Source: a virus
IMG/VR virus record: IMGVR_UViG_3300020185_000037
Span: 1-64,000 of that record
Strand: one strand, 5' to 3'
Length of the DNA: 64,000 nt
This document shows, piece after piece, positions 1 to 50,865 of this stretch. The notes below the pieces were generated by a model that was not told the DNA's origin, searched no databases, and was given only the letters and a program-made list of their open reading frames with translations. Numbering within the stretch: the stretch's first letter is position 1; each line of letters opens with the position of its first letter. A program made the position numbers and the translations under genes.

Positions 1-307
1 TATAAGCCTTTAAATCTGGACCATTTTTTAATAAACCTTTTACTTTTTCAAAATAATCTTCACCAGCTTTAAATCCCATATCTTCTAATTTAGATAAAGA
101 ATAATTTGCTTCAGTAACTACAGATTCTTTAACACCATAAGCGGCTGCATTATCTACAAAACCTTGTGTGAATCCCTTTTTATAAGCCTTTAAATCTGGA
201 CCATTTTTTAATAAACCTTTTACTTTTTCAAAATAATCTTCACCAGCTTTAAATCCCATATCTTCTAATTTAGATAAAGAATAATTTGCTTCAGTAACTA
301 CAGATTC
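1..307 (-). repeat. 180-bp in-frame tandem repeat
   Basis: Bases 1-127 and 181-307 appear identical when read by eye, giving a period of 180 bp (60 codons). The second copy continues past the window edge, so copy number is unknown. The near-perfect DNA identity implies very recent duplication or active homogenisation; an assembly error at a repeat is the alternative. Confidence 0.9.
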
Positions 308-979
308 ATTTTGTGATTTCATATATATTTCTACCACTGGATCGCCACCGTTTGTGTTACCACTAACTACCACATTGCCTTTTCCATATTCTTTTTCAAG
401 AGTCTTCATATCCTTTTTAATAGTAGACCATGTGATTGTATCACCGTCAGGTGTGCTGTTTGACTGTACCCATTTTGGGAATTTACCCGTACTAGTATTA
501 CCTAATGGTTTTTTTGGATTGCTAAACATATAAGATAATACATCTTCTCTACTTGCTTCTTTATCACCTATCATGTACTGAGCCTTAGCTTCATTAATAA
601 CTGATTCAGAGAAAGCACCTTGCTTAGGGTCTGACTTTATCTTAGTAGTAAACTTGTGTCTTTTCCAGTTAAAATTTTTGTCTCTTGTTAATGCTGGGTA
701 TAAAACTTTTTTATCATTACCGAAATAAAGGTCAATACCTATATCTCTACCTGTTTCATCATTCATTTCAGCCATTAACTCAAAAAAGTCTTTACCACCA
801 AAGACGCCGTAACCTTCATAGTTTTCTTCATGCCATTTGTTTCCTTTATCGTCAAACATGTAAATATCAGCACCTGACATTGCGCTAATTGCTTTATTAT
901 CACCTAAAGTTTTAAATGAAAACATACCTTCGTTTAAAGGCATGCTGTTGTTTATAAAATTGTTAAAAGATTCAAACAT
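1..979 (-). CDS. Tagged internal virion protein with tandem repeat (3' end outside window)
   Basis: The reading frame opens at an ATG at 979 and runs without a stop to the window edge, so the C-terminus is missing. The N-terminus (MFESFNNFINN, then MPLNEG) is a shortened form of the tag shared by many proteins here. Sites SESVINEA and, twice, ESVVTEA look like prohead-protease sites (hydrophobic-x-E before A or G). The last visible part is a 60-residue unit repeated in tandem and in frame, each copy beginning at an ESVVTEA site. This resembles a polyprotein of units separated by processing sites. I do not recognise the unit. Function is inferred to be a capsid internal protein; enzymatic activity is unknown. 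Confidence 0.8.
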   Translation of the reverse strand, partial: MFESFNNFINNSMPLNEGMFSFKTLGDNKAISAMSGADIYMFDDKGNKWHEENYEGYGVFGGKDFFELMAEMNDETGRDIGIDLYFGNDKKVLYPALTRDKNFNWKRHKFTTKIKSDPKQGAFSESVINEAKAQYMIGDKEASREDVLSYMFSNPKKPLGNTSTGKFPKWVQSNSTPDGDTITWSTIKKDMKTLEKEYGKGNVVVSGNTNGGDPVVEIYMKSQNESVVTEANYSLSKLEDMGFKAGEDYFEKVKGLLKNGPDLKAYKKGFTQGFVDNAAAYGVKESVVTEANYSLSKLEDMGFKAGEDYFEKVKGLLKNGPDLKAY

Positions 980-998
980 TTTGCTATAATTGTATTTT

Positions 999-1008
999 AT
1001 TATATATT
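999..1008 (-). promoter_or_regulatory. Late-type promoter element (variant)
   Basis: On the minus strand this reads TAATATATAA, about 20 nt before the ATG at 979. It is a variant of the GATATATA element found before other virion genes. It lies over the end of the upstream gene. Confidence 0.3.
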
Positions 1009-2838
1009 AGAAATAAACTGTTCAAATGTTAAAATAGTTTCAACATTCTCAGCAACTGCCATAGAAGCTTCAAGTCTAGACTTTAATTCGTCATACATTC
1101 CATGAATACCCTTTGGCGTTAATTTTTTAAATAGTTTCACGTCACCGTCTAACATGGCATTCCTAACTTGAGTAGCTGAAATATTATTACCAGTTCTTGG
1201 AATTTCAAAAAGTTTAAAGTCATCTCTAACGCCTAAATCTTCTCTATAAGGTTCTTTATTAACCTGGAATCCATATGTTTTCATTCTATCACTACCCGTT
1301 CCCCATAAAACTGGTTCATACTTAGGTCTCATTGCATTGAACATTGTATCAATACCACCTGTTGGTATAATAAATACATCTTCAATTGGAAGTTCTTTCT
1401 TAAGTTTATTAAGCATTTCCATTTGTGTGTCCTCATCGTAAGGGCGCTTAAATGCATCTTCCTTCTTTTTCTTCTTAGCCTTAACTAATAGTATTACAAC
1501 CGGATATCCGTTTTGTTGATGAATTGCTTTAACAACTTTAGCATGACCTAATGTAAACGGTTGAAATCTACCAACAAACATATTAACAAGTTTATTACCA
1601 TGTTCTGGATAATCTACTTTAAGTGCTTCATTCATTGATGAATTAATTGTATCCATCTTTTTATAAGTATTAAAATCTAACACATCACCTTCTTCTATTT
1701 TTGCAGATACGTGGTCGTCAATAGATTTAACAATCTCATTCATTTGATTAACCATATCTTCAGATAAAATATCTGTAGTTTTTGTTCTTTCTCTTCTAAA
1801 TGAGCTTAATGTAATTTTAAAAAGTTCACTTAAAATTTTATTATCGATAAGTTTAAGAGTTTGTTGATTTTCAATAAATTCAGTATTTAACTTAAACGCA
1901 TCTTTTTTTGCAAAATCAGCAGTTTCAAAGTTAACCCCAATAAATTTAGTAGCGTGTTCTTTAATATAAGAATTAAATACTTCAGACATAAGCTCTAAAA
2001 ATCTAAGGTCTTTTTTCTCTTTAATTAAACTGTGCTTTTTAAAATCATAATTTGATAAATACTCAATTAAATCAACAATTGTAATCTGGTAAATATCAGA
2101 TGACTTTCTTTCTGTATTTGATTCATTAACTCTTCTAAAATCTTCAATTTTAAATGGCGTCATTTTTTTACCATCTACAAAAGAAATTATAAGACCGTCA
2201 ATATCGGTATCTAAACCTTCTTGAAGTGTTGAGTTTCTAACGTTTTTATCAAATATGTTAAATAAATCTTTTGTAAATGAACGAGACTCATATGTTGTTG
2301 TAAATTCGCGGTCTGTCATTTCAAGAAGTTTAATTAAAGATTCTTTTTGATCAAATCTTAATTGACCTTCAAATACAATTGGGGGTCTTTGAACCTCTAG
2401 TTTATCAGCCCACTTATTAAGTACTTTAGTATCTCTAATAACTTTCTTAACATTTTCTGTTAGTGGATTTAGCACTTGAATATGTGTAAGCACTAAATTG
2501 TTTTTTGGAAGTAGCGAATATTCAAAGTTGGGTGTTTCACCATCAATTAAATAATCAAAACCAAACTTCCAATCTTTTGGCATCTCTTCTTTAATTTCAT
2601 TAGACAAACCTTTAAAATGCAAAATTGCAGGTTCGTAAAAACCTACAATCGTTCTATCAATAATATCAATAGGTTGAGTTTGTCCTGATTTATAATAATT
2701 ATTGTTTAAATCACCAGACTTTACATGAAATGCTGAAGCCGCTAGTTTTTCTACAACATGAACCTTTTGGTTTAATAGTTGCATAAACTGTTCTCTTGGT
2801 GTTTCTTTAAAATAATCTCTTAACTTTTGAAGTGCCAT
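1000..2838 (-). CDS. Ligase-like domain fused to NMNAT/cytidylyltransferase-like domain
   Basis: The protein has 612 residues and two nucleotidyltransferase modules. Residues about 25-235 resemble the RNA/DNA ligase fold: EKLAAS at 30-35 sits where motif I (E-K-x-D-G) belongs, DGLIIS at 214-219 fits motif IV and PFK ending at K230 fits motif V. The D-G of motif I is replaced by A-A, so covalent adenylation may be impaired, though the lysine is kept. Residues about 418-585 are a HIGH-superfamily nucleotidyltransferase with GRFQPFTLGH (T-x-G-H active site) and a late ISATQVR motif, as in NadM-type NMN adenylyltransferases and cytidylyltransferases. The C-terminal substrate cannot be read from sequence. 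It follows the tagged ligase-like gene closely and was probably co-transcribed. It lacks a clear capsid tag. Confidence 0.75.
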   Translation of the reverse strand: MALQKLRDYFKETPREQFMQLLNQKVHVVEKLAASAFHVKSGDLNNNYYKSGQTQPIDIIDRTIVGFYEPAILHFKGLSNEIKEEMPKDWKFGFDYLIDGETPNFEYSLLPKNNLVLTHIQVLNPLTENVKKVIRDTKVLNKWADKLEVQRPPIVFEGQLRFDQKESLIKLLEMTDREFTTTYESRSFTKDLFNIFDKNVRNSTLQEGLDTDIDGLIISFVDGKKMTPFKIEDFRRVNESNTERKSSDIYQITIVDLIEYLSNYDFKKHSLIKEKKDLRFLELMSEVFNSYIKEHATKFIGVNFETADFAKKDAFKLNTEFIENQQTLKLIDNKILSELFKITLSSFRRERTKTTDILSEDMVNQMNEIVKSIDDHVSAKIEEGDVLDFNTYKKMDTINSSMNEALKVDYPEHGNKLVNMFVGRFQPFTLGHAKVVKAIHQQNGYPVVILLVKAKKKKKEDAFKRPYDEDTQMEMLNKLKKELPIEDVFIIPTGGIDTMFNAMRPKYEPVLWGTGSDRMKTYGFQVNKEPYREDLGVRDDFKLFEIPRTGNNISATQVRNAMLDGDVKLFKKLTPKGIHGMYDELKSRLEASMAVAENVETILTFEQFISNI

Positions 2839-2843
2839 ATTAT

Positions 2844-3107
2844 TTATTTTGAAAATTCTTTTAAGAACTTTTTAATTTTTGATTTAGGGGCTGTTCCTTT
2901 AATAATGTCTCTTAACTCATACCTAGTAATTTCTTTAGTATGTGTAATTGCTCTTTTAAGGGCATCTAAATCTAAATTATGTTCTTCTTGAAACTCTGTA
3001 GCTGGAACACCGCCTACTTGATCATCTGCTAAGCGGTTCAAAGCATAGCCATCTTTAGATATGCTTGATTCATTTAAGAATTGTTCGTAAAGTTTAATGT
3101 GTTTCAT
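2844..3107 (-). CDS. Small tagged internal virion protein
   Basis: This 87-residue protein starts MKHIKLYEQFLNES, one of the cleanest copies of the N-terminal tag. Cleavage after FLNE would leave about 74 residues of mature protein, charged and lysine-rich at the C-terminus. There is no recognisable domain. It lies two bases from the next tagged gene upstream and five from the one downstream, so it is translated from the same message. The role is inferred only from the tag. Confidence 0.8.
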   Translation of the reverse strand: MKHIKLYEQFLNESSISKDGYALNRLADDQVGGVPATEFQEEHNLDLDALKRAITHTKEITRYELRDIIKGTAPKSKIKKFLKEFSK

Positions 3108-3109
3108 AA

Positions 3110-4396
3110 TTATCTACCATATTTAATGATACCCATTAGCTGATTAATTGCAGCAAAAGTACCCGTTAGTTTATATATTTTACCATTATACTTGAACACT
3201 AAACCTTCAGTCGGTATGATTGACTCAACACCACCGATTCTATTTAAACGCTCTAGCTCAGCTTCTACCTTTTCAATCTGTACAACATTATCACCTTTTC
3301 TGATTTTATCAGCTTCAGTTCTAATCTGCTTATGTAGTCTTTGCATTTCAGCATCTGGAGAAGCAGCAACAAAGTTAGAAGCATTCTTTAATATAACAGA
3401 ACCTAATTCTAAGAATAGGTCTTCAAACGGTCTAATGTTTTCTTTATACTTAGCACCTGAAATTTTATCGTAGTCTTTAATAGCCTGCATTTGCTTTGCA
3501 TCTATTGACTTTTTTAATTTAGTAAATGGTAGCGCTGATTTGTTGTCATATGCCCATCTTTGTAGCAGACCTTCTATAACATCTTGTGTTAATCCCGAGA
3601 ATGTTTTTTCAATCTCTTCTCTCCACCACATTTCGTGGTATCTTGAAACTTCATCATGACCAGCTAGCTTGTACTTCTTTTGAAGTGCATCAACCTTCTT
3701 CATAAAATAAGGCTTCTTAGCTTCAAAGTCTACATCTTTCTGTAGCTTAAGTACTTGCGGTGGTATAATATTAAATACTTTACCCATTCTTGCATTAACA
3801 GCGTCTAGTAACTTTGCAATGTCTTTAGCCGACCTTGCACCCATATCACCTGTAATGTTACCTTCACCATCAGTTTCTTTAATACCGTGGAATTGAATAA
3901 CGTCTCTATCGTAATTAATAACGTTAGGGTTTTGTGAATAGATAAGCTCCATATTCATAAAGTTTTTACCGTCGTTAAAGTACTTCATTTGATCATCAGC
4001 ACTTAACTTTGATAATGAAGATGTTAAGTCTCTAGCTGCAAATGTAAATGTATCTCTAACTAGTTCAGAACCATGGTCCTTGAACATCTTAGTAATACCA
4101 GCTAAACTTAAAGGTGCCATTAACTGTCCTTTATTTCTAGCAAAAAGAACTTCGCCATTCTTAACTGTAGCAAATACATTTTGACCGTCAGTCTTTTCCG
4201 TTGGCTCTTCATCAAAAGTCATTTCACCTTGAAGCCCTGCTTCGATAAACTTTCTAAAGTCATCAAATGTAAGTTCCTTATCATCAAATGGGTGCATCAT
4301 ATGACCTGCTGCGCCACCTTCCATAATAAGTTCACCTTCAAATAGGTTTTGTGTCTTTTCAAATAAGAACTCTTTATATGTATGGAGTAGTTTCAT
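3110..4396 (-). CDS. Tagged polynucleotide-ligase-fold protein
   Basis: The protein has 428 residues and begins MKLLHTYKEFLFEK, followed by two more candidate cleavage sites, NLFEG and LIMEG, within the first 27 residues. Ligase-superfamily motifs are visible: E67-K-T-D-G71 matches motif I with the nucleotide-accepting lysine at 68, MELIY near 150 could be motif III, EGLVFK at 397-402 matches motif IV and K409 in IYKLTG matches motif V. It resembles a phage family known as DUF6267, from memory and not checked. The catalytic set looks complete, unlike the domain in the downstream gene. Substrate (RNA, DNA or other) is unknown. The tag suggests the mature enzyme is carried inside the capsid. 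Confidence 0.75.
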   Translation of the reverse strand: MKLLHTYKEFLFEKTQNLFEGELIMEGGAAGHMMHPFDDKELTFDDFRKFIEAGLQGEMTFDEEPTEKTDGQNVFATVKNGEVLFARNKGQLMAPLSLAGITKMFKDHGSELVRDTFTFAARDLTSSLSKLSADDQMKYFNDGKNFMNMELIYSQNPNVINYDRDVIQFHGIKETDGEGNITGDMGARSAKDIAKLLDAVNARMGKVFNIIPPQVLKLQKDVDFEAKKPYFMKKVDALQKKYKLAGHDEVSRYHEMWWREEIEKTFSGLTQDVIEGLLQRWAYDNKSALPFTKLKKSIDAKQMQAIKDYDKISGAKYKENIRPFEDLFLELGSVILKNASNFVAASPDAEMQRLHKQIRTEADKIRKGDNVVQIEKVEAELERLNRIGGVESIIPTEGLVFKYNGKIYKLTGTFAAINQLMGIIKYGR

Positions 4397-4397
4397 G

Positions 4398-5252
4398 TTA
4401 TTTTACTTTAACTTTTGCTAAATACCCTTCGATTTCAGTATATTGAGATCTGAATTTAGTTTCACCAACAACTGTTCCCATTGTAAAAGAAACCATAGTT
4501 CCTTCTGGTTTTTTCATTGCAGCTTTATAAGCGTCTCTTGCAGACTGCTCATCATCATAAACACCAATAATACTTTTACTAGTTGAAGACCCCATTCTAA
4601 TAGCTCCTTCTAATCTAATAGTTTGACCATTAAAGTCTGCTTTGTTCGTAGCCATCACTAAATATTTAGTTTCATCTTTAGCCGGAGCGTCTGATGAGAA
4701 TTGACCGAATTCAGCAGGGCTAGTAAAATAGTAAGAGTTCATTATATTAGATTCATTAACTTCAGAATCGTCAGTTGAATTAAATGATTCTAGCAATCTA
4801 CGAAATTTAGAAGAACCGTCCATAAAAGAAACTACATATGCCCAAGCTTGTTCATGGTCAAAATCACCATCTGCAACACCTAAAGAGTTCCATATTTTAG
4901 CAAGTGCATTTCCTACTCCAATTTTATCAGCATCGTTCACTCTTCTGTCCATTTGCTTGAATTCACCGCCGCCATGTTGTAGGGAATACGATTCATTAAC
5001 TTCTAGACCTTCAACAAAAAGTGTTTGACCACCTTTATCTTCAACGTGAAGTTTAGCCTTTGGATATTCTTTTTGAAGAACATTAAATGATGCAGGTACA
5101 GCTTCAGGTGTATTAACAGTTTCTTGGTGAACTACATCACCATCTTCGATAACAACAATAGTTGCTGGATAATCACCAGCTTTAACTGCCTTGTGGATTT
5201 TACCACGAGATGCTTCACCAATGAAGCTTTCAAATAATCTTACTTTTTTCAT
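4398..5252 (-). CDS. Tagged internal virion protein
   Basis: The 284-residue product starts MKKVRLFESFIGEASRG, with a predicted cut after FIGE. Two later segments, LEVNES near 90 and SEVNES near 165, resemble further processing sites and would divide the protein into about three pieces. No enzymatic motif was recognised. It sits 1 base from the tagged ligase-like gene downstream and 12 bases from a small tagged gene upstream. Confidence 0.78.
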   Translation of the reverse strand: MKKVRLFESFIGEASRGKIHKAVKAGDYPATIVVIEDGDVVHQETVNTPEAVPASFNVLQKEYPKAKLHVEDKGGQTLFVEGLEVNESYSLQHGGGEFKQMDRRVNDADKIGVGNALAKIWNSLGVADGDFDHEQAWAYVVSFMDGSSKFRRLLESFNSTDDSEVNESNIMNSYYFTSPAEFGQFSSDAPAKDETKYLVMATNKADFNGQTIRLEGAIRMGSSTSKSIIGVYDDEQSARDAYKAAMKKPEGTMVSFTMGTVVGETKFRSQYTEIEGYLAKVKVK

Positions 5253-5264
5253 TTCGTTAATTTA

Positions 5265-5567
5265 TTATTTTGACCAAGGGTGGTTTCTTTTAACCATATC
5301 AAATGCGTTAATCAAACCTAATACATCTTTGTCTTTTTCTGAATGGTAGATTTTACCAGCATCTTTAAAGTACTTCCAAAGTGCTTCCTTAGAGCCTTTC
5401 TTATGACCGTACTCAACATCTTCTTTCTTATCGTATGTAACTACATTATCTTTGTCAAGCTTCTTAAAAGCGTCTACAAACTCCCTGTACTCGTATCCTA
5501 CAAGTTCATTATATGTGTTAAATACACCTTCAGATAAGAAGGCTTCAAATAGCTTTATATGTTTCAT
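5265..5567 (-). CDS. Small tagged internal virion protein
   Basis: The product is 100 residues. I place the start at the ATG giving MKHIKLFEAFLSEG rather than five codons upstream, because the tag then begins the protein as in its relatives and because the promoter -7 box lies only six bases before this ATG. Predicted cleavage is after FLSE. The rest is charged, with no known domain. The message may be leaderless. Having an early-type promoter is unusual for a supposed virion protein. Confidence 0.78.
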   Translation of the reverse strand: MKHIKLFEAFLSEGVFNTYNELVGYEYREFVDAFKKLDKDNVVTYDKKEDVEYGHKKGSKEALWKYFKDAGKIYHSEKDKDVLGLINAFDMVKRNHPWSK

Positions 5568-5573
5568 ACTGTA

Positions 5574-5602
5574 AATATACAAAAAAAGAATGACATAAAA
5601 AA
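5574..5602 (-). promoter_or_regulatory. Early-type promoter
   Basis: The minus strand reads T-run, ATGTC, 12 bases, then TATATTTAC. Spacing between TGTC and TATATT is exactly 12, as in five other copies in the window. The box ends six bases before the ATG at 5567. It overlaps the hairpin that ends the upstream gene. Confidence 0.6.
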
Positions 5603-5612: not shown

Positions 5613-5630
5613 AACTTTTTTAAAACTTTT

Positions 5631-7460
5631 TTATAGTACCTCGATTAAAAATTGAGAACCGTTTTTACCACCGATATTGTACTTAAGGAATTCACCAGAC
5701 CTAACACCCATAATCATGCCGTCACCCTTTTTGATAGTATTCATTTCATCTTTAAAATCAAAGCTCATGTAATCAATTTTATGATAACCTGATGAACTTT
5801 TTTGAAGCCTACCCTCAACCTTAGATGTACCATCAAATTCAGTTGTTGTTAGCATAACCCTTTTACCTTCAGCTTTTTTGATAAATTCTGCAAATTCTTT
5901 AAGTTTTATATCATCGTATCTAGCCTCATCGACTACATCATCAGCATCTTCTTTATCTTCTGATTCATTGATTCCTAAAAAATCTTTAGCCATTGCTAAA
6001 AGATCAGCATATGTATATTTACCTGTTAGTGCTTTATTTGAAATAGTTCCTTCTTTGTCACCAATAGCATACATTGATTTATCATCAAAACCAATACCTT
6101 CAGTCCAAGGTTTGTTTGGATCAAATCCTAATTCACTTGCTAATGTTTTAGCAAGGCTAGTAGCACCTCTAAATTGATCATTATAACGTAATTTGTCGTC
6201 GCCGAATGTACTAGCATCTATAGTTTTGTTACTTTCACCTACTAAATCATCAGCAAGTTCTTCATCTTCCTTATCAACAGATTTTACTGGATAAGTTTTA
6301 CCATCAAATTCAAATTCATCTTTATCGTCAGCAATAGCTTTTAGTCTTGCCGAATTAAACGCTGAACCTTCATTGATTCTTTGCTCTAGATTATTAGCTT
6401 CTACAGCTTCACCCATAAATTTAATAAGTGCATCTCTTAGATTTGATGCAGATGAATTCTTTTTAAATCTAGACTCCATGTAAAGTGCAACAGCTTCAAT
6501 AATAGCGTAACCATTGTATTTAACACCTCTTGCGATTTCAGCACCTAATTCATATACTTTTTCCATCATCAGCTTCTTGCTAATCTGGATTGGCATACCA
6601 CCCATTTCTTTAACAAAGATAGTTGGTGCTTGAAAGTTTGCAAAGTTAATTGCTTTTGCAGCTTGATTAGCTTCTCTGTGGAAGTTAGCGTCAATCATCG
6701 CGGCTTTAAGGGCCTCTTTTAATAACCAACCGATTGTTTGGTCAGCTACTGCATTACCACTTGCAAATGCAGGGTGAGCTGTCATAAATTTATTAATAGC
6801 TGCTAAACCTCTAACCGCGTCTTTTTGAGAACGTGCATCTAGTGCTTCAGTGATTAGCGATTTAGTAAGTGATTCCATTACACCGATCGCGATATCGCCA
6901 ACTTCTCTGTCACCTTTGTCAACATACTTTTTGTTTACAATAGCGATAGGGTATTTTTCCAACCTATAGATTGGCATCATGCCTGTTGAAAAATCGTACT
7001 TGATACCTGCATCTTTAAGTGCAATACCAACGTTCATAAAGTTTGATGCATTTTTTACAGCATCTGCAACTTTATCTAGCATCTCGTCGTGCTTGCCTTC
7101 AGTAACTATTGATTCAAATGTTGACTCTTTAACAAACTCTTCAGCGTTTTCTTCGTCTTCTTTATCTACATTTTTAACCGGCATTTCTTCGTCGCCAACC
7201 TTAAACTCTTCTTCACCTTTAGCAATAGCTTCCGCTCTTGCTGCACCGAAAGCATTACCTTCTTTGGTAAGTTCAGCCATGAATGCGTCTCTATCTTCTT
7301 CGTTTAAGTCTGCAACTGATGCCGCATTGTACTTTTGTAAAAGAGCGTTAAACTCAGAAACTGTAGCGTCTCTTTTAGATGCAACTTCTTTTAATCTAGC
7401 CTCTTCTCTGATTTCATTTTGTAATTGAGAAAAACTTTTAAATGATTCAATCTTTTTCAT
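5631..7460 (-). CDS. Tagged internal virion polyprotein with duplicated domain
   Basis: The 609-residue product starts MKKIESFKSFSQLQNE. Candidate processing sites run along it: ESIVTEG, KSLITEA, QRINEG, INES and DVVDEA. A module of about 50 residues occurs twice, near 65-115 and 360-415, with pattern EGxAFxxARxxAIA, then PVKxVDKEDEE, then a V-x-E-S end. The duplicates are divergent at DNA level, so the duplication is old. I recognise no enzyme motif. The clustering of sites at module borders suggests several mature peptides. It lies between uvsW and the other tagged genes and has its own hairpin terminator. Confidence 0.8.
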   Translation of the reverse strand: MKKIESFKSFSQLQNEIREEARLKEVASKRDATVSEFNALLQKYNAASVADLNEEDRDAFMAELTKEGNAFGAARAEAIAKGEEEFKVGDEEMPVKNVDKEDEENAEEFVKESTFESIVTEGKHDEMLDKVADAVKNASNFMNVGIALKDAGIKYDFSTGMMPIYRLEKYPIAIVNKKYVDKGDREVGDIAIGVMESLTKSLITEALDARSQKDAVRGLAAINKFMTAHPAFASGNAVADQTIGWLLKEALKAAMIDANFHREANQAAKAINFANFQAPTIFVKEMGGMPIQISKKLMMEKVYELGAEIARGVKYNGYAIIEAVALYMESRFKKNSSASNLRDALIKFMGEAVEANNLEQRINEGSAFNSARLKAIADDKDEFEFDGKTYPVKSVDKEDEELADDLVGESNKTIDASTFGDDKLRYNDQFRGATSLAKTLASELGFDPNKPWTEGIGFDDKSMYAIGDKEGTISNKALTGKYTYADLLAMAKDFLGINESEDKEDADDVVDEARYDDIKLKEFAEFIKKAEGKRVMLTTTEFDGTSKVEGRLQKSSSGYHKIDYMSFDFKDEMNTIKKGDGMIMGVRSGEFLKYNIGGKNGSQFLIEVL

Positions 7461-12084: not shown

Positions 12085-12729
12085 TTAAAGTGACCTTACA
12101 TAAGACATGATAAAATAAGCATCAACAAGGTCATCTAAGGGTTTCATAATCTTTTTATCTTCTTTGAATTCTTGACAAAAGTTCCAAAGACCCGACTCAC
12201 GATTAGACTCATCATTTATGTAAACATCCCACATTTGCATCTTACTCATATTACCTTTACCAGCATGTTTCTTTATTGTTGTAGGGGCGTAAACTTCAAG
12301 TACAGTAACATTAAAACGATCAATCAAATAAGATTTCAAGATTGAAGATGCTGAAGCTAAATCAATAAGTGAGTTTGTACCAAATCTTGAGGTCCCGTAA
12401 GAAGAACCTTCAAAATAGATTTTATATTCTTCATCTGTATTCGTATGTTCTGCAATTAAATTGCATATACCTTCAGCAATTGCACGATGTCTAAGGACTC
12501 GAGTCATTTCTTGCTTATCAACATTAGGCTCAGGTTGATTTACTAAAGTAACATCATTAAGAAGATTCATCTCCTCTTGTAGAGCTTGTTGTTTCTTTGT
12601 TCCGGATTTGGGTTTAATATAAGAAATATAATAAGGCTGTCCCTCTTTTAAAATACAGATACCCGGTGAGTTGATCGAATAATCGATTGCTATTAAATTC
12701 AAATTAAAGTTTTTTACCCAGTGAAGCAC
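12085..12729 (-). CDS. RuvC/RNase H-fold nuclease
   Basis: The 214-residue protein has the acidic layout of RuvC-like resolvases: D in LIAIDYSINSPG near residue 16, E in YFEGSSYG near 111, and the closing KPLDDLVDAYF near 196-206 with the last carboxylates. T4 resolves branched DNA with endonuclease VII instead; several distant T4-like phages encode this RuvC-type enzyme. The start gives a 26-base overlap with the gene upstream; no other ATG lies before the first catalytic residue. Confidence 0.75.
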   Translation of the reverse strand: MLHWVKNFNLNLIAIDYSINSPGICILKEGQPYYISYIKPKSGTKKQQALQEEMNLLNDVTLVNQPEPNVDKQEMTRVLRHRAIAEGICNLIAEHTNTDEEYKIYFEGSSYGTSRFGTNSLIDLASASSILKSYLIDRFNVTVLEVYAPTTIKKHAGKGNMSKMQMWDVYINDESNRESGLWNFCQEFKEDKKIMKPLDDLVDAYFIMSYVRSL

Positions 12730-13072
12730 CTAACGCAGCACCTACTAATCTAGAAGTTAATAAATCATAGAACACGCCTTTTTCAATACCCAGTACTTTA
12801 GCGACAATCTTACCAACTGATTTACCTAAAGCAAACCCTGTAAGACCACCTATAATAGAACCTAATAAACCTTCATTAGTAATTTCATTGTTAAGTTTAT
12901 CAATATTGTAAGTACCATCTTCATTTGTATACTCTATTAAAAAAGCATCAACAGCTTCATCAATTCTTTCTTCAAGCTCTGGTGTCCACTCTTGATTTAA
13001 AGATTCGTTAATAGCATTGATATCAGCCTCTGTGACATTTTGCTCTTCTAAGTATGTTAAAAATGTTTTCAT
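12704..13072 (-). CDS. Tagged protein with glycine-zipper hydrophobic segment
   Basis: The 122-residue product starts MKTFLTYLEEQNVTEA, close to the T4 internal protein tag MKTYQEFIAEA. An acidic spacer to about residue 65 ends at EITNEG, another hydrophobic-x-E-G type site. After it comes a hydrophobic glycine-rich segment (GLLGSIIGGLTGFALGKSV) and a second small one at the C-terminus. Cleavage there would free a peptide with the look of a membrane-active glycine zipper. A similar layout occurs in the tagged protein at 48201. Confidence 0.75.
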   Translation of the reverse strand: MKTFLTYLEEQNVTEADINAINESLNQEWTPELEERIDEAVDAFLIEYTNEDGTYNIDKLNNEITNEGLLGSIIGGLTGFALGKSVGKIVAKVLGIEKGVFYDLLTSRLVGAALGASLGKKL

Positions 13073-41648: not shown

Positions 41649-41650
41649 AA

Positions 41651-43968: not shown

Positions 43969-43989
43969 CTATTGATATAATTATTTATA

Positions 43990-45314: not shown

Positions 45315-45326
45315 AGTGTATATACC

Positions 45327-45677
45327 TTATTTCATTTGAGCCGCCTTTTGGTATAAGGCGATGGACTCTTTACGGTCGGCACGATAAGTTTCTTTGTCTT
45401 TAACAATCGTACATCTCCAAGCTTCTAATAATACTTCTACTTTTTCAGCACTGTAGCCATTAGCTTCATGTGATGCTTTAATGCTTGCTTCTTTTTGAGC
45501 AAAGTATTCAGATTGTCTTTTTTCATTAGCCTCTACATTCTGTAAATGTAATTTAGCACCTTCTTTTGCGGTCTTAGCATACCAAAGTTTACCAACTTCA
45601 GTGAACGGACCATACATGTTTTTTACACGTAACATTCCAGCAGATTTTAACTGCCATCTTCTTTGACTTCTGTTCAT
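45327..45677 (-). CDS. Hypothetical helical basic protein
   Basis: The 116-residue protein starts MNRSQRRWQLKSAGML and continues as a charged helix with many lysines, arginines and glutamates. The start is like small head- or tail-associated basic proteins, but I do not recognise a family. Confidence 0.62.
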   Translation of the reverse strand: MNRSQRRWQLKSAGMLRVKNMYGPFTEVGKLWYAKTAKEGAKLHLQNVEANEKRQSEYFAQKEASIKASHEANGYSAEKVEVLLEAWRCTIVKDKETYRADRKESIALYQKAAQMK

Positions 45678-45689
45678 TTTGTATTTAAT

Positions 45690-46244
45690 TTATGAATAAT
45701 ATTCTGATAGAAATTCGGATACATTAGCTGTAATGTATTCCTTTAGTTTATTTATCTCAATTTGTTGAAGGGCCACTTCCATGATTTCTTCATTTAAGTC
45801 CGCATCCTCCATGCCTTCAGACAACATTGCATGTAATTGTGGCGTTGGTATATTGATATTAATTTGAACAGGAACATTAACAACATTCTTTTTGCTCATT
45901 TTCATAATCATTTTACCCATAACCGTCGGTTCTTTTACCGGTTCTTGTTGTGTAACTATGGTGTCTGATGAATTTGTAGCGACTACATTTCCTTCATTTT
46001 GAATAGGACCAGTTTGAATCGGCTTTGTCTCAACATCAATAAAGCCACCTATTTTAGTTGAAGCCGGAACCTCCATTAAAAATTCACTAATTAAAGATGG
46101 ATTAATACGTGTACCGTCTGTAAAGTATAACCAATTAGTATCCGGTTGCTCTTTAGCAACTTGAACAACTTCGGTGGTTCTTTCTGATTTAACCCATTGA
46201 TACTTTTGTAGCTCTTTGTCTTTAGCCATGATTGTTTCTTCCAT
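45690..46244 (-). CDS. Hypothetical protein
   Basis: The product is 184 residues. I place the start at the ATG giving MEETIMAKDKEL, which follows the stop of the gene upstream directly (TAAAATG), rather than 25 codons earlier inside that gene. It has a WLYFTDGTRINPSLISEFLM segment, a flexible T/P/V-rich stretch and an acidic helical end. Not recognised. Confidence 0.62.
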   Translation of the reverse strand: MEETIMAKDKELQKYQWVKSERTTEVVQVAKEQPDTNWLYFTDGTRINPSLISEFLMEVPASTKIGGFIDVETKPIQTGPIQNEGNVVATNSSDTIVTQQEPVKEPTVMGKMIMKMSKKNVVNVPVQININIPTPQLHAMLSEGMEDADLNEEIMEVALQQIEINKLKEYITANVSEFLSEYYS

Positions 46245-46245
46245 T

Positions 46246-46455
46246 TTAGTTTTTGTATTTTGAGGTAATTTTCGAGAAGTCTTGACTATCGTCTTCTTGA
46301 TACGCTGTAATAAATTCATCTAATAATTGCATTGATTTTGAAGGTCCAATATAGGCATCAACTTTAATATTGTTAAGATAAAATAATTTAGGATTTGATT
46401 CTATAGATTCAATAATATCTTCTACAGGTTGCAAATATTTTTTAATGAATGACAT
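46246..46455 (-). CDS. Small hypothetical protein
   Basis: This is a 69-residue protein that overlaps the dCMP deaminase gene by 14 bases. Segment IKVDAYIGPSKSMQLLDEFI is the most structured part. Not recognised. Confidence 0.55.
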   Translation of the reverse strand: MSFIKKYLQPVEDIIESIESNPKLFYLNNIKVDAYIGPSKSMQLLDEFITAYQEDDSQDFSKITSKYKN

Positions 46456-46942
46456 TTGTTTGTATTACTTCAATGTTAGCTTTATTTAATAATTCAAGAC
46501 CACCCATATCTCGGTAGCTTTCGTTGTAATATACTTTAGTAATACCTGATTGAATGATTAATTTTGCACATTCAAAACATGGTGATGTAGTTGTGTATAA
46601 TGTAGCACCATCCGATGACAAAGTTGATTTAGCTAATTTACTCAACGCATTCGATTCAGCATGTAACACCTCAACCTTGGTTACCGTTTTACTACAGCAA
46701 TCTTCCTCACAATCATATCCCTTATCTATTAGGATTTGTAAGTGGTCTGGGTTATCTACATATCTAACCTGTTCTTCTTCACATGTGTTGTCAAAACCAT
46801 GGGGTGTTCCATTGTAACCAAACGAAACAATCTGTTCGTCTTTTACAATGACACATCCAACTTTACGTCGCTCAGCATAACTCAGTTTTGCAATTGAGTA
46901 CGCAATCTCCATGTACACTGATTCAATCTTTAATCTAGGCAT
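46442..46942 (-). CDS. cd: dCMP deaminase
   Basis: The 166-residue enzyme has the zinc site H94-A-E96 and P121-C-F-E-C125, the substrate loop GYNGTPHGF near 42-50, and the N-terminal VGCVIVKD of the family. It converts dCMP to dUMP, the precursor of dTMP, and in T4-like phages is regulated by dCTP and dTTP. A terminator hairpin ends just upstream of its ATG, so it is likely to start a new transcript or depend on readthrough. Confidence 0.93.
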   Translation of the reverse strand: MPRLKIESVYMEIAYSIAKLSYAERRKVGCVIVKDEQIVSFGYNGTPHGFDNTCEEEQVRYVDNPDHLQILIDKGYDCEEDCCSKTVTKVEVLHAESNALSKLAKSTLSSDGATLYTTTSPCFECAKLIIQSGITKVYYNESYRDMGGLELLNKANIEVIQTNVIH

Positions 46943-46944
46943 AT

Positions 46945-46983
46945 AAAATATAAAAGTCCGTGCATATTATACACGGACCTTTA
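46945..46983 (-). terminator. Rho-independent terminator
   Basis: GTCCGTG and CACGGAC form a perfect 7-bp stem, extendable by A-T pairs, with a nine-base loop, then TTTTATATTTT on the minus strand. It ends the acidic protein gene. Confidence 0.75.
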
Positions 46984-47011
46984 ATAAATGTTTCAAGAAA
47001 TTATGAATCGC

Positions 47012-47683
47012 TTACTCTTCGTCGCTTTCAACCTCTTCACCTTCAGCAGACCAAGCTTCTTTCATCTCGTCAATCTTCTTAGCGTAAGATTCTTTTAATT
47101 CATTACATGTAGCCTCGTACATTTCAAGGGTCATGTCTTCTTTCATTTCTTTCAATGTATTAACTGCCATCATAGCAACTAATGCCGCATTTTCTTTTAG
47201 GTAAGATTCAATAGTATGCTCATCGTGCATATCTTCTTCCCAAACTTTAGCTTCGTTTTTACAAGCCTTGTATGCCTCTTTAAGCATTTCAGCAACTGCT
47301 ACAACTTCTACAGAATCTCCATCGTCAGAATCGTCTTCATCTTCGTCGTCAGAATCGTCTTCATCTTCGTCGTCAGAATCCTCAGATTCAGTCATAGCTT
47401 CTTCTTCAGATGGTACTTCATCATCAGCTGAATCTACAATACCTTTGTCTTCTTCAGATGAAACTTCTTTAGTGTCTGCTTCAAGTTCTTCAGCTTCTTC
47501 ACCAGCTTCTTCACCTTCAACATTGTCTTTTACTTCAACGTTATCTTCACCTTGTTCGTCTGTAACAACTTCTTCTTCACCTTCCGCTTCCATAGGTTCA
47601 CCCATTTCAACTTCTGTGTTTTCGATTTCTTCAGCCGTGTCAATGTCAGCAACGTACTCTTCGAATGATTTTAATTTAGCCAT
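47012..47683 (-). CDS. Highly acidic protein with tag-like N-terminus
   Basis: The 223-residue protein begins MAKLKSFEEYVADIDTAEE, a looser form of the capsid tag. Residues 25-125 are almost entirely E, D, S and V, with a repeat of DSDDEDED. The last 95 residues form a helical domain with EMLKEAYKACKNEAKVW and MTLEMYEATCNELKESY. T4 prohead core protein gp67 is also small and acidic and is cut by the protease. A scaffold/core role is inference. A late-type element precedes it. Confidence 0.7.
   Translation of the reverse strand: MAKLKSFEEYVADIDTAEEIENTEVEMGEPMEAEGEEEVVTDEQGEDNVEVKDNVEGEEAGEEAEELEADTKEVSSEEDKGIVDSADDEVPSEEEAMTESEDSDDEDEDDSDDEDEDDSDDGDSVEVVAVAEMLKEAYKACKNEAKVWEEDMHDEHTIESYLKENAALVAMMAVNTLKEMKEDMTLEMYEATCNELKESYAKKIDEMKEAWSAEGEEVESDEE
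47325..47385 (-). repeat. 24-bp tandem repeat in acidic protein gene
   Basis: The plus-strand unit gtcagaatcgtcttcatctt followed by cgtc occurs twice in full plus a partial third copy, encoding DDEDEDDS. Confidence 0.8.
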
Positions 47684-47703
47684 TTTAATATGTTATTATT
47701 TTA

Positions 47704-47713
47704 TTATATATCT
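47704..47713 (-). promoter_or_regulatory. Late-type promoter element
   Basis: AGATATATAA on the minus strand, about 21 bases before the ATG at 47683, in the 39-base gap. Confidence 0.45.
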
Positions 47714-47722
47714 AATAATATT

Positions 47723-47914
47723 TTAGTCCATTTCTTCCTTAGTGGGAATTATATTATCAGTAATTCTGTTAACCGAAATATTAGTAGGCCTTCTATCCAC
47801 AACGATAACCTTGTCTTTAGACGTACCAACTGTTTTAGTTTTTTTTGATTTAATAAATTTATAATCAATGAATAAAACTGAGGCAATCGTTAATGTAATA
47901 ATTAAAAAATACAT
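47723..47914 (-). CDS. Small membrane protein
   Basis: The 63-residue product has one N-terminal transmembrane segment (MYFLIITLTIASVLFIDYKF) and then a basic cytoplasmic-type tail. The topology is common in small phage envelope proteins, including some holins, but nothing proves that. A late-type element precedes it by about 15 bases. Confidence 0.6.
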   Translation of the reverse strand: MYFLIITLTIASVLFIDYKFIKSKKTKTVGTSKDKVIVVDRRPTNISVNRITDNIIPTKEEMD

Positions 47915-47927
47915 AATATTTTATTTA

Positions 47928-47938
47928 TTTATATATCT
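47928..47938 (-). promoter_or_regulatory. Late-type promoter element
   Basis: AGATATATAA on the minus strand, about 15 bases before the ATG at 47914, in the 52-base gap after the tagged genes. Confidence 0.45.
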
Positions 47939-47966
47939 TGTAAAGATATTTATTTGTTTTTTAATT

Positions 47967-48197
47967 TTATTTAGATGAAATAACACCTTTTTTATTGAAC
48001 ATATTGTAATTAACATGAATCTTTTTACCAGACTTTATATGCTTTAATATTAGAAGTGTATCGTCTGACTCTGCAACTTCAAAATCATCACCCATATATG
48101 TAACGTTTGAACCCTTAGCAATATTCTTAAATTGATCTTTGCTAATCTCTTCACCTTGGCTTTTCGTAAAAGCTTCGAATAATCTTACTCTTTTCAT
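47967..48197 (-). CDS. Small tagged internal virion protein
   Basis: The 76-residue product begins MKRVRLFEAFTKSQGEE. The mature part is rich in K and D and reads as a small beta barrel (GSNVTYMGDDFEVAES, then DDTLLILKHI), similar in layout to small RNA- or DNA-binding domains. The identity is unknown. Three bases separate it from the next tagged gene. Confidence 0.75.
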   Translation of the reverse strand: MKRVRLFEAFTKSQGEEISKDQFKNIAKGSNVTYMGDDFEVAESDDTLLILKHIKSGKKIHVNYNMFNKKGVISSK

Positions 48198-48200
48198 AAT

Positions 48201-48791
48201 TTAATTCATTTGAACCTTAAGTTCTTTTGTTAGTTCTCTATCTTTCTTTTTATCTTGCATCGCCATTTTAGAAAGTACTTTTTTAATTTGACCGTCTGCC
48301 ATACGCATAATTTTTTCAGTTGATTGTATTCTAGAATTAAGCTTTACTTTATTAACATAAGTTTTAAGCTTGTCATTCTCTTCACCAATGATGTCCATTC
48401 TAGTTACAATATCAGCTTCAAGTTCTTGTAGTTGCTTACCTTTAAGGTCAGTCATTGAAGTTTTCTTTGTGTTTGACTTTATATCTTTAGCAGATACTGT
48501 ATCAGCATACATATCAACTTTACTTTCTAACTCTTCTTCAAACGCTTCAATGTTTTCAGCTTCAATATTAACCTTAGCAATATTAATTCTAACCTCAGTA
48601 AGCTGTTGTGCAAGTTTATCTAACTCACGTTTCTTTTTTGGGTTTGAAAATAAAGAACCTAACCATGAGAATAAACCCTCATCAAGCATACCTTGTATTT
48701 CAATGTCTGTGAGACCACCACCCATAATCGCATCAATCTCCTCGTATAAAGGATTAAGCTCAAACTGCTCAAATAATTTTATATGCTTCAT
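48201..48791 (-). CDS. Tagged coiled-coil virion protein
   Basis: The 196-residue product starts MKHIKLFEQFELNPLYEEID. A second candidate site, IQGMLDEG near 38-45, is followed by a short hydrophobic stretch (LFSWLGSLFSNP), the same order as in the tagged protein at 12704. The rest from about 60 is a long coiled coil with two or three helical stretches. Inferred internal virion protein; no enzyme motif. The gene shares a base with the next tagged gene. Confidence 0.78.
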   Translation of the reverse strand: MKHIKLFEQFELNPLYEEIDAIMGGGLTDIEIQGMLDEGLFSWLGSLFSNPKKKRELDKLAQQLTEVRINIAKVNIEAENIEAFEEELESKVDMYADTVSAKDIKSNTKKTSMTDLKGKQLQELEADIVTRMDIIGEENDKLKTYVNKVKLNSRIQSTEKIMRMADGQIKKVLSKMAMQDKKKDRELTKELKVQMN

Positions 48792-49810
48792 TAAGATTTA
48801 AGTTTTTTATCATGTCCACCGTCTCTAACTTCTTTAGCAAGGTCTTTATCAGCATCACCCCAAGTACCAGCGCCTTTAGTAAGAAATGCATTAACTCTAG
48901 CGTATCCCCATTGCTCTTGACCCGCACCCGGCCTATGACCTGTTTTCCACGCGGCCATTCCACGTCTCATTACAACTCTAATAATACCAATAGGTACACC
49001 AGTTTCTTTAGACTTTTTTGCAAGTGCCGTTTCGATATCAGCATTATCTAATTTACTTCTATCACCTTCGGCTTTTTCTTCGTTAACTTCAGATACTGGC
49101 ACACAGTTAGGTACCTGCTTACCACCTTTAGTTTTCATACCGTCTTGTCTGTAACCGTCCCAACATTCACCTACAAGTTCAGCTTCAGAAACACCATTTG
49201 TTGAATCATTACATGAAGGACATACGTCATTGTTTTTAGCCCAAGCTTTAGCAGTATTAACCTCATCACATTCTAGACATGCAATTTTAGATGCTTCAAT
49301 TATAATTGATTCGTTCTTTTCGTCACCATAAAGCTCATGGTATTTCTTAACATGCTTAGATGTTTTAACTTGACCCTTCTCTCTAGCCTCTTCGTCACCT
49401 GGCATTTCTTTATAAGCTGATGAATCATCATCATCCATTTCACGCTGCTTTTTGATTTGATCTTCTTTATCGGTTTCGTCTTCTTTATCAAGCCCAGTCA
49501 TATATTTGTCCGGACCTGGTTTAGCATCACCTTCTAATAAGTCTTCTCTATCAAGTTGCTTATAAACCTCTTTACGTGTTTTTTCCATCTTAGTAGCATA
49601 TTCAGGGTCATCATTTCTATTGAATACAATTTGTTGTGTAAGTGAAGATGAAATCTTTTTAACGTCACCGTTACGTGTATCAATTAACCACTTAGCTAAA
49701 TCCTTAACGCTTAAGTCCCTGAATCTACCATATGCATCTGGTGCATCTGAATCATGGAACTCAGGCCTTGCTTCATTAATAAAATCTTCGTATAGTTTTA
49801 AATGTTTCAT
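48791..49810 (-). CDS. Tagged multidomain internal virion protein
   Basis: The 339-residue protein starts MKHLKLYEDFINEARPEF. A site ESIIIEAS near 165 is followed by a zinc-ribbon-like pair (CLEC, CPSC) at about 174-196. A cysteine motif CWDGYRQDGMKTKGGK with PNCVP follows near 212-232; it occurs in virion proteins of other large phages, from memory. The C-terminal part (VPIGIIRVVMRRGMAAWKTG, then GYARVNAFL) resembles the DUF5824 family. The middle is acidic. It is likely cut into two or more mature pieces. Function unknown. Confidence 0.75.
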   Translation of the reverse strand: MKHLKLYEDFINEARPEFHDSDAPDAYGRFRDLSVKDLAKWLIDTRNGDVKKISSSLTQQIVFNRNDDPEYATKMEKTRKEVYKQLDREDLLEGDAKPGPDKYMTGLDKEDETDKEDQIKKQREMDDDDSSAYKEMPGDEEAREKGQVKTSKHVKKYHELYGDEKNESIIIEASKIACLECDEVNTAKAWAKNNDVCPSCNDSTNGVSEAELVGECWDGYRQDGMKTKGGKQVPNCVPVSEVNEEKAEGDRSKLDNADIETALAKKSKETGVPIGIIRVVMRRGMAAWKTGHRPGAGQEQWGYARVNAFLTKGAGTWGDADKDLAKEVRDGGHDKKLKS

Positions 49811-49814
49811 AATT

Positions 49815-50513
49815 TTAAAATGTAGGTATACCTCCTATTTGTTTTGCACGTCTTTTCCAAAGTGTAAGAATTTCTTCACGCTCTTTTCCATTTATTTCAC
49901 CAGATTGTTCTTGCGTGTCTAGATATCTATTAACAGCATCGGCCATCGACTCTTTTCTTTTTTTAGCCTCATATCTAAGACCCTGTATGTTTGCATCAAC
50001 CTCTTTAGGTAGCATGAAATATTGTGCTTTTGGTAATAGACCAATCTTAATCATTTGTCTTAACATACCATCATCTTCATTTGGTTTACCCATTCTGTAA
50101 TTACCAATAGCCTCACCGCCTTGTGTGATATGTTCAATCTCATGTCTTACAACATCTGCTAAATAAAAATAAATAGTAGACCATTCACCGGGAATCCAAT
50201 CAGGATTAACAGCGAAGTCTATAATAATATACGGGTCTTGCTCGTCACCTTCATCATCAGTTGTTCTTGAATCGGCACCTGTGCTATTAAGTATTTCAAA
50301 ACCTTTAACACGCTTGGTAACATGTAGGTTGAAATCAACATCAAATTCTAGTCTGTTTAAAACTAAGCTTTCTGTAAAGTTAAGTGTAGCTTCACCACCT
50401 TTATAACCGTTCACCCACTTCTTAAAAGTGTGCTTAACTAGTTTAGATGCAATACTATCATAAGAGCTTCTACCCTCATTAACAAAATCTGTAAAATTAA
50501 ATATGTTATTCAT
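49815..50513 (-). CDS. Tagged zinc metalloprotease-like protein
   Basis: The product is 232 residues. I use the ATG that follows the stop of the gene upstream directly, giving MNNIFNFTDFVNEG. A metalloprotease motif H124-E-I-E-H128 lies in ADVVRHEIEHITQ, and E171 in LPKEVDANIQGL could be the third zinc ligand. The tag predicts cleavage after FVNE. If packaged, it would be a peptidase delivered with the DNA or acting in the capsid. The target is unknown. T4 gp21 is a serine protease, so this is not the maturation protease family. Confidence 0.75.
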   Translation of the reverse strand: MNNIFNFTDFVNEGRSSYDSIASKLVKHTFKKWVNGYKGGEATLNFTESLVLNRLEFDVDFNLHVTKRVKGFEILNSTGADSRTTDDEGDEQDPYIIIDFAVNPDWIPGEWSTIYFYLADVVRHEIEHITQGGEAIGNYRMGKPNEDDGMLRQMIKIGLLPKAQYFMLPKEVDANIQGLRYEAKKRKESMADAVNRYLDTQEQSGEINGKEREEILTLWKRRAKQIGGIPTF

Positions 50514-50514
50514 G

Positions 50515-50865
50515 TTATTTAGCATAGCGGACCATAGTGTCCTTATACTTTAAATCTTTATTCTTAACAAAGTCAAAACCTTTATAGAACTTTTCAAGTC
50601 TAGCTACAGAAGATGCACCAAAATCTTTTGATGGTGTGAGTCTAATGTCTTTACCCTCTTTGTCTGCAAACGCAATAATACGTTCCATCGCTTCAGTCCC
50701 TACACCAGAACCCCTTAACCTTTTAGGAACTTCAATTTTACCTAATTCTAAGTGGTCACCATTATCCCATAGGTCTAGTACGATACCTAACTCATTTTCC
50801 AAGTCGGACATAATGTACTTTTCATTTACAGAAATAAATGATTCAAAGGCTTTGACGTGTTTCAT
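50515..50865 (-). CDS. Tagged GNAT acetyltransferase-like protein
   Basis: The 116-residue product begins MKHVKAFESFISVNEKY. The rest fits a GNAT fold: strand ELGKIEVPKRL, the acetyl-CoA loop R51-G-S-G-V-G56, helix TEAMERIIAFADKEG, strand DIRLTPS and SVARLEKFYKGFDF, where the ASxxxLxxFY ending is typical. Substrate is unknown. As a packaged acetyltransferase it could modify host proteins soon after infection, as Alt does by ADP-ribosylation in T4. The latter is inference. A terminator precedes it. Confidence 0.78.
   Translation of the reverse strand: MKHVKAFESFISVNEKYIMSDLENELGIVLDLWDNGDHLELGKIEVPKRLRGSGVGTEAMERIIAFADKEGKDIRLTPSKDFGASSVARLEKFYKGFDFVKNKDLKYKDTMVRYAK

Follow-up and report, generated by a model that had tools for sequence, protein, structure and literature searches.

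The window analysed here comprises 64,000 of the 72,031 bases of IMG/VR virus record IMGVR_UViG_3300020185_000037 and contains genes for replication, a tail module resembling that of T4 and numerous small genes, and a set of its proteins starts with variants of a common short sequence, in the following called the tag. This tag is real and widespread in uncultured phages and, as judged from sequence comparisons, is very probably a capsid-targeting propeptide of the type known from phage T4. That it targets proteins to the capsid and is cut off by a prohead protease had been proposed in a sequence-only reading of the window, and this proposal is in accordance with the register of the putative cleavage site, the T4-like spacing of residues, the lack of kinship between the mature parts and the presence of enzyme-like cargo.

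According to the mechanism that we infer, which comprises packaging, cutting, docking by mimicry of scaffold repeats and injection, the first half of the tag, a helix-forming stretch with F/Y-x-x-F, would dock the protein on the prohead scaffold core, and the second half, [ILV]-x-E, would be the cut site of an S77 prohead protease fused to the scaffold. The freed cargo would remain in the head and be delivered together with the DNA. Since the tag would suffice, unrelated genes could be recruited by gaining it, and some cargo might be strung together as modules of a single long polypeptide, with additional [ILV]xE sites between them.

Distribution and putative cleavage register of the tag

A longer contig of the same phage is G001 (125,503 bases), which overlaps the record over 71,265 bases at 99.84% identity. 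By helicase, the nearest phage record is LR756500, an uncultured 462-kb genome (55.8% identity) in which about 30 window genes are matched in similar order, and a megablast search with 20 kb against 50,697 phage records, from which the same or very near genomes were possibly excluded, found no relative at the DNA level.

The tag was scored with a profile of 14 columns built from 140 tags of other contigs, at a cut-off of 12 bits; the window's own tags are absent from it, but relatives of the window proteins starting at 49810 (31/44 residues alike) and 5567 (24/44) are included. At this cut-off, 29 of 687 gene calls in LR756500 are tagged at the N-terminus as compared to 0 of 1,676 internal methionines, and the corresponding numbers are 22/352 and 0/1,328 in G022, 13/244 and 1/825 in G008, 10/155 and 1/755 in G004, 8/153 and 0/787 in G001, and 5/223 and 0/922 in G014, where the counts for G022, G008 and G004 are not independent of the profile, as some of their tags are in common with the training loci. 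G022 was reached via a degenerate DNA pattern for the tag, G008 via this pattern and the family of the protein encoded at 3110..4396 (the 3110 family), G001, G004 and G014 via the 3110 family, and LR756500 via tblastn. One tagged gene (50515-50865 of the window) was overlooked by the gene caller, resulting in a total of nine in G001. When LR756500 and two contigs of the group are combined with the loci fetched with the 3110 protein, which is itself tagged, the cut-off is reached by 159 of 2,066 genes but only 20 of 8,697 internal methionines after removal of identical genes (233/2,667 and 28/11,885, respectively, with duplicates). As the earlier reading had it, tagged proteins thus outnumber the T4 internal protein set. 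None of 133 open reading frames (ORFs) in a 36-kb stretch of T4 reaches 12 bits; IPI is included in this stretch and fails, and IPIII runs off it.

The degenerate pattern occurs in at least 120 viral stretches, and of the 158 pattern peptides in ORFs of the matched viral loci, 146 lie at the start (offset of at most 12) and 12 are internal. In locus L103, twelve of 14 tagged genes reside within 6.8 kb. By contrast, 84,980 bacterial and archaeal species yielded only 20 stretches with the same pattern; 17 pattern peptides map to ORFs of 30 amino acids (aa) or more, seven of them within the first 12 residues, and eight placements are, by eye, an internal segment of a single clostridial family. 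The tag is therefore mainly a viral feature.

All loci collected contain at least 402 distinct tagged proteins, which fall into at least 194 clusters, 145 of them singletons (blastp, E 1e-3; close variants are counted apart, and kinship of short proteins may be hidden). Tags of non-homologous proteins in one genome have a mean identity of 0.28-0.78, in contrast to 0.03-0.10 for the next 13 residues, in agreement with the earlier claim that the mature parts are unrelated. At the DNA level, codon agreement at identical tag residues is above expectation in seven of eight sets, by 0.03-0.20 (observed/expected: G001 0.58/0.55, G004 0.60/0.52, G008 0.69/0.60, G014 0.85/0.65 with n = 33, G022 0.70/0.64, L103 0.66/0.60, and L088, which is part of G008, 0.78/0.59). 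This, together with the location of the tag at gene starts, would speak for a DNA or mRNA element, such as a translation enhancer or a recently copied 5' end, in place of a protein signal. However, agreement is below expectation in LR756500 (0.69 vs 0.78), and the excess is small in the larger sets, so that copied DNA can account for a minor part at most; as the tag codons agree little beyond genome usage, a recent DNA copy or an RNA element is unlikely to be the main cause. Also, a C-terminal form of the tag exists, and the register of the Glu as well as its retention in other leader types (see below) are features of proteins. The probability of such an element is therefore very low.

With respect to the putative cleavage site, 63% of the 192 N-terminal cores have Glu at +3, counted from the second aromatic residue, as compared to 1-12% at other offsets, and 72% have a hydrophobic residue at +1. 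These cores stem from the loci fetched with the 3110 family and from G001, G004, G014 and LR756500, none fetched by the tag, and the tag was recognised here solely by the part of its core that ends with the second aromatic residue. In T4 IPIII, which starts with MKTYQEFIAE, Y4, F7, I8 and E10 fall on tag columns 7, 10, 11 and 13. As reported in PMC9026906, residues 4 and 7 are the main determinants of IPIII targeting and residues 8 and 10 those of its processing, and Asp at the cleavage-site position stops processing but not targeting. The spacing of aromatic, aromatic, hydrophobic residue and Glu in the tag is therefore the functional spacing of IPIII.

The 3110 family provides a second site. 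Here the tag is followed by 4-20 residues and then by a Glu before GG that is invariant in 40 of 40 aligned proteins, as are the whole E26-G27-G28 and K68, D70 and G71. In L186, L208, L211, L213 and L214 the tag site carries Asp and the second Glu is retained, and Microcystis phage Mel-JY01 has a fusion protein in which the module follows a cytidylyltransferase-like domain and the GG is preceded by IIAE. The protein is probably an RNA-ligase-like nucleotidyltransferase. Although the first 14 Foldseek matches of its model are RNA and tRNA ligases, their E values (1.7e-3 or higher) and query TM-scores (0.15-0.23) are weak, and the assignment is therefore based mainly on the invariant KxDG and EG[LIV]VF, which we take to be ligase motifs.

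Tagged proteins and putative cargo domains

All 13 starts quoted in the sequence-only reading are present in the window, on the minus strand. The proteins concerned, together with an enzyme with a C-terminal tag, are the following (scores in bits):

1..979, minus strand: N-terminal part of a 1,075-aa cargo protein, the gene being cut by the window edge; start MFESFNNFINNSMPLNE; score -34.7
1000..2838, minus strand: cytidylyltransferase-like enzyme (PF01467, E 1.2e-9) with no N-terminal tag and a C-terminal tag without Glu at cleavage position P1
1003..1029, minus strand: the C-terminal tag TFEQFISNI of this enzyme, from its sequence and the C-termini of homologues
2844..3107, minus strand: tagged protein, 87 aa, MKHIKLYEQFLNE; score 45.6
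3110..4396, minus strand: probable RNA-ligase-like nucleotidyltransferase with the tag MKLLHTYKEFLFE, then a linker and the second site IME before GG; score 12.9
4398..5252, minus strand: tagged protein, 284 aa, MKKVRLFESFIGE; score 32.1
5265..5567, minus strand: tagged protein, 100 aa, MKHIKLFEAFLSE; score 40.3
5631..7460, minus strand: 609-aa multi-module protein with a weak tag-like start and, with support from homologues, internal FESIVTE and AEEFVKE; score 0.5
12704..13072, minus strand: 122-aa protein with the degenerate start MKTFLTYLEEQNVTE; score -8.3
47012..47683, minus strand: very acidic 223-aa protein with the loose tag MAKLKSFEEYV, read from the sequence; score 6.6
47967..48197, minus strand: tagged protein, 76 aa, MKRVRLFEAFTKSQGE; score 15.6
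48201..48791, minus strand: tagged protein, 196 aa, MKHIKLFEQFELNPLYE; score 27.1
48791..49810, minus strand: tagged DUF5824 protein, 339 aa (PF19141, E 1.6e-17); score 41.6
49815..50513, minus strand: tagged protein with HExxH (read from the sequence), 232 aa, MNNIFNFTDFVNE; score 12.7
50515..50865, minus strand: GNAT-like acetyltransferase of 116 aa with the tag MKHVKAFESFISVNE; passes the PF00583 cut-off (E 5.2e-5); score 29.9

Of the twelve starts claimed as tagged, nine are clear by the profile (3107, 4396, 5252, 5567, 48197, 48791, 49810, 50513 and 50865), while those at 7460 (0.5 bits), 13072 (-8.3) and 979 (-34.7) are weak, so that the claimed count was generous; the looser form claimed for 47683 is indeed present at its start, but remains below 12 bits. 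The protein starting at 979 begins with MFESFNNFIN, an offset variant of the tag, and its full copy (G001:70382-73609) has several ES-V-[VI]-xEA-like segments. The internal sites of the 7460 protein are also located in its G001 copy (63901), and the G004 homologue of the 13072 protein has MKDIKTFKEYLQE close to its start. For the HExxH protein at 49815..50513, a family search gave no match save one PHROG of unknown function (E 0.058).

Two side observations concern repeats in the record. The first approximately 180 bases of the window (within 1-356) are tandemly repeated at the record end, and G001 gives both stretches overlapping coordinates; this is probably an assembly artefact of the contig ends. 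At 66,500-70,200 of the record (L001), several dispersed repeats of about 80-100 bases lie between small genes and are possibly shared promoter or terminator units.

Of the cluster representatives, 186 are 85 aa or longer, and a Pfam scan of 127 of these gave 35 families, several of them overlapping leucine-rich-repeat (LRR) families; among the 25 families listed are Acb1, PNK3P, NUDIX, a DUF2201 metallopeptidase, CHAP, LRR, D-Ala-D-Ala-ligase-like ATP-grasp, methyltransferase and CTP_transf. In LR756500 (L005, L008), several tagged proteins are LRR proteins. It might be assumed that the tagged proteins are mainly core or structural parts of the prohead that are cut and kept in the head, and not effectors that are delivered. 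Most cargo representatives have no Pfam name, and both the acidic protein at 47012..47683, which by inference is possibly a prohead core protein, and the G001 protein encoded behind the capsid gene (start MKIKLNEAIKSFDMFINE) resemble core proteins. However, the Acb1-like phosphodiesterase, PNK3P, NUDIX, GNAT, CHAP and ATP-grasp proteins, which bear out the earlier statement that enzyme-like proteins are tagged, are enzymes without an evident structural use, and with 194 clusters and 145 singletons the cargo sets differ strongly. A mainly structural role is therefore considered unlikely.

Some of the cargo is Acb1-like. When three of these proteins were scanned singly, two exceeded the PF23474 cut-off, and a structural model has a predicted local distance difference test (pLDDT) score of 88.9, with the leader (residues 1-15) below 50. 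Foldseek matches this model to phage phosphodiesterases including FBB1 Acb1 (7t27, E 1.9e-5), although other 2H phosphodiesterases match as well. The two HxT motifs of the 2H fold (H60, T62, H135 and T137) are invariant in 38 of 38 aligned proteins, and these cargo proteins are, from their sequences, likely anti-defence enzymes, with cleavage of cyclic oligonucleotides (anti-CBASS) as a putative activity. Of 62 distinct homologues, 16 have the tag, one a weak form of it and 45 none. The leaders differ between phages, but among the 38 aligned proteins, which were selected from the homologues, 33 leaders end in Glu, all 33 with I, L, V or M two residues before; two of the 38, those of L344 and L360, start at the domain itself.

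One such other leader type was found in G031, which encodes an Acb1 homologue without the tag, and where N-termini cluster into Sec-like signals and the leader MIKLxxL[IL]xE. The latter is present in the Acb1 homologue, in two genes flanked by those for the protease and the presumed capsid protein, and in a protein (131207) that, by eye, has the segment CWxGYxQxGMK in common with the tagged DUF5824 protein of the window. Further leader families ending in Glu occur in G033 (L377-L392), where 15 of 403 gene calls, or about 20 genes by similarity, start in the form MK[IL]IITE and several start with MNLQENIxRIxxMMGxINE. In T4, the acb1 gene (57B, L393:7953-8411) adjoins ipI, and its start MMEFKDFSTG resembles MKTFKEFTST of ipI.

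The two halves of the tag also occur apart. Domains that are free and tagged in one phage sit inside longer proteins in others. The borders of such modules were determined by homology and are partly related and not independent; of 145 distinct borders, 113 have an [ILVMF]xE site in the interval from -12 to +3, as compared to a fraction of 0.30 for random positions in the same proteins. Only five of these 113 junction sites have aromatic residues at P7 and P4 (FxxF). In line with such internal sites, [ILV]xE[ASG] is found per 1,000 aa 10.3 times in cargo-like and 3.7 times in other proteins of G001, the corresponding values being 7.1 and 3.4 in G004, 6.9 and 3.2 in G008, and 7.8 and 3.0 in G022. 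In turn, the distinct C-termini of the enzyme family of 1000-2838 carry a loose FxxF motif in 31 of 34 (15.6% of control ORFs) and a strict one in 29 of 34 cases (3.7%), and none of 31 C-termini ending in a TFxx[FY] stretch, nearly the same 31 and copied by eye, has a Glu at P1.

Since the junction sites mostly lack FxxF and the C-terminal tags lack the Glu, FxxF looks like an address and [ILV]xE like a cut site, and the same division of targeting and processing residues was found by mutagenesis in T4, as reported in PMC9026906. Alternatively, the aromatic core of the tag and of the scaffold repeats described below might only be an extended recognition site of the protease, with docking achieved by other means, as could be suspected from FGSFLTE in T4 gp23 and from the [ILV]AE site within the scaffold repeats. 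However, the small number of junction sites with FxxF, the retention of FxxF in the C-terminal tags without Glu, and the assignment of T4 residues 4 and 7 to targeting and of 8 and 10 to processing argue against this explanation, which is thus regarded as quite unlikely.

Protease, scaffold and capsid genes

The absence of a prohead protease had been named in the earlier reading as an outcome that would speak against a capsid-targeting tag, and such a protease is indeed present in the same phage: G001:96060-98207 encodes a protein of 715 aa with an S77 protease domain (PF03420, E 1.2e-14; weak match to the T4 gp21 structure 5jbl, E 5.5e-5), followed in the same protein by a repetitive, acidic scaffold-like part. 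This protease-scaffold gene directly precedes a gp23-type capsid gene (PF07068, E 2.7e-45), and in LR756500, the only genome in which a T4-type portal was looked for, portal (E 1.1e-71), protease-scaffold and capsid gene lie in a row. An S77 match was found in 19 of 29 long records, of which 16 were reached via the 3110 family and 13 via the tag pattern. Seven of the ten records without this match also lack a gp23 match and may not include the head region, and G021 starts within its capsid gene. In G027, a 743-aa protease-scaffold-like gene below family detection was found by motif and repeats adjoining the capsid gene, and on its other side ten consecutive genes (L415:9062-14007, i.e. G027:79061-84006) have MKHIKLFEQF-, MIKNFNxFLNE- or similar tag-like starts.

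As a side observation, the gene directly behind the G001 capsid gene (G001:99962-101212; L240:19962-20000 and L241:1-1212) begins with MKIKLNEAIKSFDMFINE, and tag-like starts are likewise seen in genes close by in G004 and G014, the case of G022 being less clear. A blastn search with 1 kb behind the G001 capsid gene gave no match in the same phage records as above, with the same or very near genomes possibly excluded.

As the nearest relatives by helicase are huge phages, the tag might also be an import signal for another phage compartment, e.g. a phage nucleus, or a signal for membrane insertion or secretion. However, no hydrophobic signal-peptide core is seen in it, the clustering in G031 sets Sec-like signals apart from leaders ending in Glu, and such a signal would leave both the head genes and the cleavage register unexplained, which makes this possibility highly improbable.

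A candidate for the docking partner of the tag is the scaffold itself. In six genomes, the motif [FY]xx[FY][ILV]xE, which spells out the functional residues of T4, has 29 copies in the 2,628 aa of scaffold, counted from residue 200 onwards, and 66 copies in the 363,399 aa of the remaining proteins, counted after residue 25. This corresponds to a 61-fold enrichment, and the scaffold ranks first for the motif, or shares first place, in all six. The copies are often exactly 14 residues apart, e.g. at 307, 321, 335, 349, 363, 377, 391, 405 and 419 in G027, and the repeats themselves contain the [ILV]AE site. It is therefore conceivable that the tag is a detached copy of the 14-residue scaffold repeat, by which cargo would pose as a scaffold repeat, that the scaffold-borne protease would cut repeats and tags at the same Glu, and that leaders particular to each lineage would re-address the same defence-blocking enzyme.

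A number of points weigh against these interpretations. The support as a whole comes from sequences. At the exact register, [ILV]xE is missing in three of the nine window tags (48197, 48791 and 50865, the last with VNE two residues past it), internal FxxF-type cores (n = 56) have Glu at +3 in 25%, although some are real internal tags, and the module borders, as stated, are partly related. G025 is tagged but has neither a PF03420 match nor a clear capsid gene. As to the scaffold, LR756500 has only two copies of the motif, tied with three other proteins; with the strict tag profile the scaffold does not stand out, as it receives 0-3 of the top hits in a genome at 0.55-0.69 expected, and column-permuted profiles reach 3-5. 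The motif test was not blind, because the likeness had been seen by eye beforehand, and a motif version also allowing His was picked after the scaffold had been viewed, so that its control is likewise post hoc, although among 840 arrangements only 1 attains the count in every genome. Finally, T4 gp22 has no copy of the seven-residue motif, and repeat mimicry therefore does not extend to T4 as such, while T4 gp23 carries the motif as FGSFLTE, so that the aromatic residues could partly serve the protease. For these reasons, i.e. the unblinded test, the negative strict profile, gp22 and gp23, repeat mimicry is put forward only tentatively, its chances being judged as somewhat less than even. If true, the tag would be a general sequence handle to injected, mostly unknown host-takeover proteins in uncultured phages.

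Comparison with known systems

By title and abstract, no paper describing this tag system was found among open-licence PMC papers, supplements excluded. The closest counterpart is the capsid-targeting sequence of T4 (IPI, IPII, IPIII and Alt, cut by gp21), which likewise is a short N-terminal propeptide with aromatic residues three apart and an [IL]xE site, and occurs together with an S77 protease, a gp23-type capsid and unrelated mature proteins including anti-defence proteins, the latter being reported for T-even internal proteins in PMC3012670. New with respect to T4 are the expansion, the C-terminal form, the strings of modules, the additional site in a single family and the recurrence of the tag core in the scaffold. 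In particular, and unlike in T4, more genes are tagged (29 of 687 gene calls in LR756500 and 22 of 352 in G022), the tag has three extra residues before its core, the protease is fused to a repetitive scaffold, and besides N-terminal tags there are C-terminal ones, modules within long proteins and, in the 3110 family, a second site.

The module strings may be comparable to polyvalent proteins, described in PMC5512222 as multi-domain phage proteins that are predicted to be injected and partly processed. However, processing by built-in peptidase domains was proposed there, whereas the modules here are bounded by sites of the prohead-protease type and single tagged proteins exist as well. In phage P1, the N-terminal capsid-targeting region of DarB serves to bring both this anti-restriction protein and a reporter into the capsid (PMC9024508), a likeness by description, and unlike here P1 seemingly has no separate scaffold according to the same source. 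The giant phages SPN3US and phiKZ, with their processed head proteins, share with the present phages a gp21-related protease, a cut after Glu and many internal proteins (PMC10052503, PMC9026906), the last two features being predicted for the present phages. In the accounts given there, however, six of eight N-terminal propeptides of SPN3US are long (111-254 residues), 42 head proteins are uncut, and a common short tag is not part of the description. Finally, with regard to T4 Acb1 (gene 57B; PMC9117128), the tagged 2H phosphoesterases match PF23474 and the FBB1 Acb1 structure 7t27, but differ from the T4 protein by a leader ending in Glu in 33 of the 38 aligned homologues.

Taken together, what was a curiosity of a few T4 proteins becomes a probable packing system that relies on a tag and comprises about 194 clusters of cargo in the loci examined. 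Proteins that probably enter the host when infection begins, among them unknown anti-defence proteins, can thereby be sought with a simple test on the sequence. Moreover, because the scaffold here repeats the same core, the old gap concerning the binding partner of the T4 targeting sequence becomes a testable proposal, and the system suggests an addressable protein-delivery module outside T4.

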